Below, piece after piece: positions 28,790 to 31,728 of a stretch of 64,000 bases of DNA. The translations under genes were made by a program, and so were the position numbers. Within the stretch, counting starts at the first letter, position 1; each line of letters opens with the position of its first letter. The notes under the pieces were generated by a model. It was not told where the DNA came from and did not search any database. It was given only the letters and a program-made list of their open reading frames with translations. Origin of the DNA: Chlorobium sp. (GTDB lineage: Bacteria; Bacteroidota; Chlorobiia; Chlorobiales; Chlorobiaceae); contig SZXX01000044.1 in assembly GCA_005843825.1 (NCBI GenBank), positions 1-64,000 of the forward strand, in the 5' to 3' direction.

Positions 28790-29761
28790 GTGAAAGTAAA
28801 CCTCGACAGAACCTCGTCAGGATTCTGCATAGGAGTGCAGGGAACCATATTTGTGGCCGAAGAAAAACTTCAGACAGAGGGAGGATTATACTCTTTCGGC
28901 GATGTTGTCCATAATGAGGTCGAGGTGAAACGACTGGAAGCCCTCGGTCTTGTCACCGTTGACGAAGCCGGCTTTAAAAAGCTAAAAAATGCACAGGTGC
29001 TTATCCGTGCACATGGAGAGCCTCCTTCGACCTACAGGATTGCCAAAGAAAACAATCTCGCCATTACCGACACAACCTGTCCTGTAGTTTCAAGGCTTCA
29101 GCGAACAACCCGAATGCTTTATAAGCTGGGCTACCAGATCATTATCTACGGCAAACATACCCACCCAGAGGTTATCGGCATCAACGGTCAATGCGATAAT
29201 TCCGCTGTCATTATCAAACACCCCGACCTCAGCGACCCCGAAGAGATACGTGCGCTTGATCCGGCAAAAAAAACAGCGCTTATTTCCCAGACCACCATGG
29301 ATATTCCCGGGTTTTATGAGCTGAAGGAAAATCTTGAACGCTATTTCGCACCGGCCGGCTCCGGAAAACCGGCTCCATGGATGGCCATCCGTGATATTGA
29401 CATTACGGCCGATATGACAAGCGTGATTGCCATGCCGCAGCATGTGTTCAAGGATACAATCTGCCGGCAGGTATCGAGCAGAAACCAGAAACTCCATGAC
29501 TTCTCTCTTGCCAATGACACGGTCATCTTTGTAGCAGGGAAAAAAAGCTCAAACGGTCAGGTGCTTTTCAATATCTGCAAAGCGGCAAACCCGCACAGTT
29601 ACTTTATTGAAGATGTCGACGAACTTCAGGGTAGATGGTTCATGAACAGTGAAGGAAAGACGGTTGACAATGTCGGCGTATGCGGTGCAACCTCAACGCC
29701 AATGTGGCTTCTTGAAAAAGTGGCCAGCTCTATTGAACAGAACTTTGGACAAACTTCATGA
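28790..29761 (+). CDS. ispH: 4-hydroxy-3-methylbut-2-enyl diphosphate reductase
   Basis: A 323-aa 4Fe-4S enzyme, the last step of the MEP pathway, making IPP and DMAPP for carotenoids, quinones and bacteriochlorophyll tails. The cluster ligands are visible: Cys13 (GFCIG), Cys97 (TTCPVV) and Cys225 (TICRQV). Conserved His41 (VHNE) and the THPE motif (about 124-127) bind the diphosphate and donate protons. The start codon is GTG. Its stop overlaps the start of the next gene by 4 bases (ATGA), so a redox flavoprotein is translationally coupled to it. Confidence 0.95.
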
Positions 29762-31728
29762 ATTCACTCTCTCTTACCATCAACGGGCAGCACGTTACGG
29801 CCTCACCCGATCTATCGATTCTTGAAGCCGCAACTAAAGCCGGCATTGAGATTCCTACCCTTTGTTTTCATGATTCCCTTCACGAAACGGGGTCATGCTG
29901 GATGTGCATTGTGGAAATCAAGGGGAAAAACCGTTTTGTTCCAGCATGCCACACGCTCGTATCGGAAGGCATGGTCATTGAAACTGACAATGATACCCTG
30001 AACTCGATGAGAAGGCAAAGCCTTGAAAACATCATCGAAGAACATAGCGGTGACTGCATGGGACCCTGTGAACTGTCATGCCCTGCAGGTTGCGATATTC
30101 CAGACTTTATCGCAGCAATTTCTCAACAGAATGACAGAGAGGCTCTCAAAATAATCAAGGACACAATTCCTCTTCCAGGAATCCTCGGCAGAATCTGCCC
30201 TGCTCCCTGTGAAGACGAATGCAGAAGGCATGGCATAGATACTCCCGTGTCTATCTGTTCCCTGAAACGGTATGCCGCTGATAGAGACAGCGCAGAAACC
30301 GATCGGTTTGTTCCTGAAATTGCCCGGAAAACAGGGAAAAAAGTAGCGGTTATAGGAGCTGGACCAGGCGGACTTAGCGCTGCTTACTTTCTGCTCCGCA
30401 ATGGACATGCAGTAACAATTTTCGAATCCAGTGATCATGCCGGAGGTATGATGCGCTATGGAATTCCCCGCTTCAGACTTCCCGAAAATGTTATTGAGAG
30501 TGATATTGCAACACTGCTGGCTATGGGTGTTGAGTTCCGCTTCAACACAACATTCGGCAGACATATCAATGCCGACACCCTGAAAAAGGAATATGATGCC
30601 CTGTTTCTTGCTGTAGGGGCACAGATTGCCTCACGCATGAACATTCCCGGTGAACATGAACCCGGAGTAATCAGCGGTATTGAGTTTCTTCGTAAAGCAT
30701 CTTGCGGCGAGCCCCAGCATGTCGGAGAGCGTGTCATAGTAACAGGTGGCGGAGATACAGCTATTGATGCTGCACGAACAGCGATTCGTCTTGGAGCATC
30801 AACAGTAACCATCCTGTATCGACGCTCAAAACTTGAGATGCCGGCAAATCCCGCCGAAATTAAGGACGCGCTTGCCGAAGGCATCTCACTTATTGAGTAC
30901 GCTGCTCCTGTGGCAATCAGAACCCTCAACGGTTCACTTGAAATCACCGCAATACGAATGCAGCCAGGCGAACAGGACCATACCGGGCGCCGCAAGCCGG
31001 TCCCTGTCGAAGGGTCAGAGTTCACTGTAGCCGCTGATACTATTATATCTGCAATCGGACAGCAGATTGATCCTGATGCAGGGCATGCCGCAGAAATAGG
31101 CATTGAGAAGGGCGGGGAACTTCAAGTACATCCCGAGACCCTGCAGTCCCTGGTACCATGGATATTTGCCGGAGGAGACTGTGTAACCGGCACCAATATT
31201 GCAATACGCGCTGTTGAGCAGGGGAAACGTGCTGCTCAAGCCATCAACCTCTTTTTAAACGGTGAAGTGCCCATTGCCGGGAAACACTCTTTCAACTCGT
31301 CCTTCGGAGCAAGGGATGAAGCTCCAAAGGCATTCTATCAGGGTAAACCTCCAGCAGAAAGAGTCCCAATGCCTGAATTATCCCTCGAAAAACGATCAAA
31401 AAGTTTCGTAGAAGTTGCCTTAGGCTACAGCGAAGATTTTGCCCGCCAGGAAGCCCTGAGATGCCTCCAGTGCCGGTGCGGCGCCATCACAGATTGCCGT
31501 CTGAGGGAGCTTTCAAGTCGTTTTGCTCCCTTTACAAAGGCAGAAACCCATGATCATACAGGCTTTTATAAAGCGGCAAAAGCCGATATACTTATGGAAA
31601 GAGAGAAGTGCGTTGACTGCGGAATATGCGTCCGCATGCTTGAGCAGTCAGAAGGCGATGCAGCCTTTGAGGGTGCCCTCATAACAGAAAGCTGTCCTAC
31701 CGGGGCGATTTCCTTAAACGGGAGGTAA
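29758..31728 (+). CDS. multi-Fe-S NAD(P)H-type flavoprotein (2Fe-2S + GltD-like + 4Fe-4S)
   Basis: A 656-aa soluble redox protein. Domains in order: a NuoG-like 2Fe-2S ferredoxin domain (Cys36, 47, 50, 64), the adjacent Cys-rich [14 protein letters not shown] segment (Cys100, 104, 108, 112), GltD-like N-terminal Cys ([10 protein letters not shown]), FAD site [17 protein letters not shown](P) site [19 protein letters not shown] for flavin tail binding, and C-terminal CLQCRCG plus CVDCGIC...CPTG for further clusters. It should pass electrons between NAD(P)H and an iron-sulfur acceptor. The 4-base overlap with ispH suggests it may supply IspH with electrons. Close relatives are glutamate synthase small subunits and NfnB-like proteins, but no GltB is nearby. 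Confidence 0.8.

Follow-up and report, generated by a model that had tools for sequence, protein, structure and literature searches.

Chlorobiaceae genomes carry, directly behind ispH, a gene for a large iron-sulfur flavoprotein whose presence or absence is matched by two marks in the sequence of IspH itself, and a functional partnership of the two proteins is very probable on this basis. The domain make-up of the flavoprotein, taken together with the published NADPH oxidation by the related protein StnC alone, further suggests that it is likely the direct electron donor of IspH. Recent papers describe the in vivo electron route to IspH and the docking site of its donor as open questions (PMC8837944, PMC11218510), and this gap hampers moving the MEP pathway from one host to another. 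A partner whose gains and losses coincide with two defined features of IspH amounts to a natural experiment that names the residues to mutate. If the proposed role is correct, a protein family that is widely misnamed would also receive a function, and a module of bifurcating enzymes would prove to have been reused as a single-purpose reductase. No earlier report of the ispH-flavoprotein pair was found in literature searches.

The ispH-flavoprotein locus

The two genes lie on the same strand in the window (the whole stretch of 64,000 nucleotides that was analysed), which stems from a Chlorobiaceae genome of 2.55 Mb (contig G000:C50; Table 1). The upstream gene product matches LytB (PF02401; 246 bits, 4e-73) and the NCBIfam model ispH_lytB (TIGR00216; 194.5 bits at a cut-off of 187.85), and it has all three cluster cysteines (C13, C97, and C225), which are invariant. 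The flavoprotein, which has one full-length match in the genome and thus is single-copy, contains the Pfam domains Fer2_4 ([2Fe-2S]; residues 3–78), Fer4_20 (102–179), and Pyr_redox_2 (194–489), and matches NCBIfam NF009454/PRK12814 over its full length (positions 1–653 of 657) with 1098.7 bits (cut-off 916). The original prediction had described a 656-aa flavoprotein with Fe-S, FAD, and NAD(P) signatures that starts within the ispH stop codon with a 4-base overlap, and open reading frames, Pfam domains, and alignment all agree with this description.

Table 1. Positions of the genes and sequence features of the ispH-flavoprotein locus within the window.
Feature	Positions	Strand	Details and basis
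ispH (4-hydroxy-3-methylbut-2-enyl diphosphate reductase)	28790..29761	+	323 aa; start GTG at 28790, stop TGA 29759–29761; ORF, PF02401, TIGR00216
IspH Ile14 codon, directly 3' of the codon of cluster ligand Cys13	28829..28831	+	Residue comparison of linked and unlinked IspH
IspH insert, about residues 187–219, preceding cluster ligand Cys225	29348..29446	+	Alignment; structure prediction
RDIDIT motif, IspH residues 201–206, within the insert	29390..29407	+	Conserved only alongside the flavoprotein
ATGA stop/start overlap of ispH and the flavoprotein gene	29758..29761	+	Spacing of -4
Flavoprotein gene (PRK12814 Fe-S; StnC/SfrB-type NADPH module)	29758..31728	+	656 aa; ORF from ATG (29758) to TAA (31728)
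Flavoprotein [2Fe-2S] ligands C36, C47, C50, C64	29863..29949	+	Alignment; Fer2_4
Flavoprotein HxxxCxxxCxxxCP (H96-P109), NuoG-type cluster motif of StnC/NsoC	30043..30084	+	Alignment; PMC7483475
Flavoprotein C147/C151/C155 and K170, around the cluster adjoining FAD	30196..30267	+	Alignment; PMC10482914
Flavoprotein FAD-binding Rossmann fold, GxGxxG, residues 194–230	30337..30447	+	Pfam; alignment; R240 (= StnC R239) just downstream
Flavoprotein NADP(H)-binding Rossmann fold, GGGxTA, YRRS, residues 325–356	30730..30825	+	Pfam; alignment
Flavoprotein CxxCxC....C motif (C569, C572, C574, C580)	31462..31497	+	Alignment
Flavoprotein C-terminal [4Fe-4S] CxxCxxC (618/621/624) and C646	31609..31695	+	Alignment; chain ends here

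Distribution and losses of the flavoprotein gene

The survey covered 98 genomes of the class, of which 75 contain a full-length flavoprotein gene and three more a copy broken by contig ends. In every copy whose upstream side was assembled, ispH lies directly upstream; an apparent exception with two ispH matches (G076) was caused by a duplication at a contig end. The pair is embedded in a block of the order cmk-ychF-murI-ispH-[flavoprotein]-DUF-lpxB-pgm-rpoE, which is conserved throughout the Chlorobiaceae. Five Chlorobiaceae genomes that are 96–100% complete (G022, G029, G038, G030, and G052, hereafter referred to as losers) have the same slot without the flavoprotein gene, of which the block in these five genomes has kept no trace. 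Among relatives, the flavoprotein gene is thus either paired with ispH or lost, and the separation of the two genes in close relatives that the original prediction had named as speaking against it was not encountered.

The flavoprotein gene is also missing from the outgroups in the order (Chloroherpeton-like genomes and others). At those outgroup loci where the gene order was readable (L110, L146, L147, L195, and L197), ispH is found with cmk and rpsA, unlike in the Chlorobiaceae, where it sits behind murI, which suggests that ispH changed its place at the time the flavoprotein gene was acquired.

Parsimony on a six-gene tree needs three changes to explain the presence and absence of the flavoprotein. 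Topologies that unite all five losers (AU p = 1e-52) or G030 and G052 (p = 1.6e-78) in one clade are rejected on this tree and, together with the parsimony result, this indicates three independent losses. As tryptophan-bearing remnants of an IspH insert described below persist in the losers and are absent from the outgroups, the gene was lost in these lineages rather than never gained. Most likely, it was acquired at the base of the family along with the move of ispH and subsequently lost three times. The flavoprotein is not obligatory, since the five losers and all outgroups keep IspH without it.

Rnf was considered as a replacement of the lost flavoprotein and rejected: PF01512 occurs in four of the five losers, yet their sisters with the flavoprotein (G025 and G026) and another clade have it too, and hence it follows the tree. 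An rnf cluster (rnfB, rnfC, rnfD; loci L161 and L164 in G048 and G030) is found in some Chlorobiaceae lineages and missing from most, including the host genome.

The original prediction had derived a partnership of the two proteins from the coupling of their genes, and had proposed to look for conservation of the overlap across the Chlorobi. The exact 4-base overlap occurs in only 18 of 70 distinct junctions, the others mostly being 10 to 63 bases apart, and with a spacing that varies from -4 to +63 (not counting an artefactual 178 at a contig end) the overlap was rejected as proof of coupling. Conserved adjacency alone was likewise rejected, because functionally unrelated neighbors are equally syntenic. 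While this part of the argument thus is weak, the partnership itself is supported on other grounds, namely that Ile14 and the RDIDIT insert of IspH come and go with the flavoprotein gene in three separate losses, and that control proteins including IspG show no such marks.

Marks of the flavoprotein in IspH

Residue 14 of IspH, next to the cluster ligand Cys13, is isoleucine in all 75 distinct flavoprotein-linked proteins and phenylalanine in all 16 that occur without the flavoprotein (5 losses and 11 outgroups); the IspH of A. aeolicus has Phe14 as well. The second mark is located in an insert of approximately 30 residues that precedes the third cluster cysteine and contains the motif W..[IVL]RD[IV]D.T in 75 of 75 linked, but in 0 of 16 unlinked proteins. 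In the losers this motif is decayed (VKDADIK, IESAQLK) or shortened (VQGI, VKSIG, VQIID) with its tryptophan kept, and the entire insert is missing from the outgroups and also from A. aeolicus and E. coli IspH. Structure prediction by AlphaFold2 suggests that the insert is ordered and forms a helix at residues 202–209 (block pLDDT 83–94). A DNA pattern for GFCIGV had no match in 13 genomes with genes for StnC-like homologues that belong to the Bacteroidota but not to this class. Outside the Chlorobiaceae it was matched in about 10% of the other genomes, near the rate of a reversed-pattern control, and none of the eight loci read was ispH.

To be counted as discriminating, a column had to be conserved in at least 93% of the flavoprotein-bearing genomes and to differ in every loser. 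Such columns number 4 of 168 in IspH, although those in the insert are mutually non-independent, versus 0 of 1346 over seven control proteins (CMK, YchF, MurI, PGM, LpxB, RpoE, and IspG; Fisher p = 1.5e-4, in tests made after the pattern had been seen). Of 3000 pseudo-loss sets drawn from the flavoprotein-bearing rows, 2978 lacked such columns altogether, 22 had one, and none had more. A sign test restricted to independent pairs would be weak with only three informative losses.

Under a fixed species topology, IspH had a longer branch than any other gene at two of the three losses, with 139 per mille of tree length in G030 (other genes 24–43) and 76 in G052 (23–51), while its stem in the G022 clade was of normal length. 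Both proteins evolved fast on the stem of G025 and G026, the sister group of the G030 loss, where the flavoprotein reached 80 and IspH 45 per mille, compared with 3.5–23 for other genes. G030 and G052 tend to group in the IspH tree, but G052 returns to its own clade once the diagnostic columns are dropped, and vertical descent of IspH is rejected neither with nor without these columns. The disappearance of the grouping suggests that the shared changes are parallel and not transferred, so that horizontal transfer of one ispH allele among the losers is not needed as an explanation. Covariation of the branch rates of ispH and the flavoprotein gene in flavoprotein-bearing lineages was modest (ERC, r = 0.31) and exceeded by other gene pairs, and was not counted as support for a partnership.

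The flavoprotein as a probable NADPH-oxidizing module

The closest solved structures, both by sequence and by fold, are StnC-type chains of the electron-bifurcating NfnABC/StnABC transhydrogenases (9bov, 8oh5, and 9n5u). Residues 1–636 of the flavoprotein share about 40% identity with StnC of Sporomusa ovata StnABC (8oh5) and NfnA/C of NfnABC (9bov and 9n5u), and contain the GltD-like NADPH module with N-terminal [2Fe-2S] that is typical of Stn/NfnABC. The [2Fe-2S] site, the FAD and NADPH folds, and the lysine K170 and arginine R239 (R240 here) that were studied in StnC (PMC10482914) are all conserved. The HxxxCxxxCxxxCP motif, too, has been described for StnC, and the recombinant StnC protein alone oxidizes NADPH (PMC7483475). 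A further cysteine, C112 (window about 30091–30093) in the motif CPAGC[DN]IP, is shared by the aligned copies from Chlorobiaceae and occurs neither in StnC, which has C114 two residues on, nor in the other homologues; it might serve as an additional ligand of the FAD-adjacent cluster.

In contrast to StnC, which carries a NuoG/FdhF-like C-terminal domain, the flavoprotein lacks this domain and ends after one C-terminal cluster motif. Its usual NuoE/NuoF-like partners (StnA/StnB) are also absent: no PF01512 protein was found in the host genome or in most Chlorobiaceae, and the PF01512 matches in this family are RnfC at all loci read. Distant homologues in an Anaerolineae MAG, a Thermoplasmata archaeon, and Desulforamulus are positioned after NuoE/NuoF-like genes. 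The homologue of the Anaerolineae MAG (L053, 4785–7061 and upstream) is a short StnC-like protein with two C-terminal clusters and without the FdhF domain, whose gene lies behind the NuoE/NuoF-like genes, with a separate FdhF-like gene nearby; it may represent an intermediate form linking StnC to the Chlorobi flavoprotein. SfrB of Geobacter SfrAB is likewise a separate GltD-like NADPH subunit (PMC7483475), and the neighborhood of the flavoprotein gene contains no SfrA-like gene.

Proposed electron route and alternative roles

An orphaned NADPH-oxidizing module of the StnC/SfrB type was probably recruited by the Chlorobiaceae as a dedicated IspH reductase. NADPH would reduce the FAD of the flavoprotein, from which single electrons would travel through its [4Fe-4S] and [2Fe-2S] clusters on the route by which StnC hands them to the NuoF-like subunit StnB. 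As the NuoF-like subunit is missing, IspH would take the role of StnB and receive the electrons on its [4Fe-4S] cluster by direct contact. The docking face may be formed or tuned by Ile14, the neighbor of Cys13, and by the RDIDIT helix that precedes Cys225, and IspH thus reduced would convert HMBPP to IPP and DMAPP. The losers would have returned to a Phe14 IspH that presumably is reduced by ferredoxin. In its fullest form, this model holds that the dedicated NADPH:IspH reductase binds IspH directly and replaces ferredoxin, that the Ile14/RDIDIT type of IspH is specialized and poorly served by ferredoxin, and that the losers reverted to the ferredoxin type three times; taken as a whole, this combination is slightly less likely than not.

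A point against any dedicated donor is that Chlorobiaceae have ferredoxins and FNR (PMC12786658), which could supply electrons to IspH. Ferredoxin might then be the donor and the flavoprotein an IspH-bound partner with another job, such as maintaining or repairing the oxygen-sensitive cluster or holding IspH in a larger redox complex, and the co-variation data would suit any physical partner. However, the entire make-up of the flavoprotein is that of an electron wire from NADPH, and the mark at residue 14 lies beside a cluster ligand, where a donor is expected to matter, which renders such a role rather unlikely.

Even less probable is that the flavoprotein serves as a general carrier enzyme from NADPH to ferredoxin (or from ferredoxin to NADP) with IspH as one customer among several. 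Its relatives are indeed ferredoxin-linked transhydrogenases, but this job is already done by FNR and by NfnAB, a pair encoded on a third contig of the host genome, and the marks are confined to IspH. IspG, whose electron demand is of the same kind, is the sharpest control, and none of its 317 conserved columns has a discriminating residue. The Chlorobiaceae IspG (L219, contig G000:C15) is of the long type, with an open frame of about 690 aa and a large central insert between two conserved parts.

The conservation of the whole ychF-murI-ispH-lpxB-pgm block and the variable overlap would also be consistent with coincidence, meaning that a housekeeping gene landed behind ispH and was held there by general synteny while IspH changed for unrelated reasons. 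The same IspH changes in three parallel losses, the lack of any discriminating column among the 1346 of the control proteins, and the outcome of the pseudo-loss draws make this very improbable. A function as glutamate synthase small subunit, which rests on the NF009454 family name, can practically be dismissed, because GltB is paired with another GltD on a different contig and GltD has neither the [2Fe-2S] nor the C-terminal Fe-S parts.

Comparison with known systems

The sequence fully matches NF009454/PRK12814, but the name of this family, "putative NADPH-dependent glutamate synthase small subunit," is misleading and appears to be wrong for the Chlorobiaceae members, as the genome contains a separate gltBD pair (G000:C44), in which gltB is followed by a different gltD (118045–119349). 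With regard to the proposed function, a comparison is provided by E. coli and Plasmodium, in which electrons of NADPH reach IspH by way of a carrier, namely via flavodoxin reductase and flavodoxin in the former and via FNR and ferredoxin in the latter (PMC8837944). The dedicated reductase proposed here would likewise bring electrons from NADPH to the IspH cluster. The carriers of E. coli and Plasmodium, however, have many client enzymes and are not inherited together with ispH, whereas the flavoprotein of the Chlorobiaceae is one large protein that apparently is specific for IspH.
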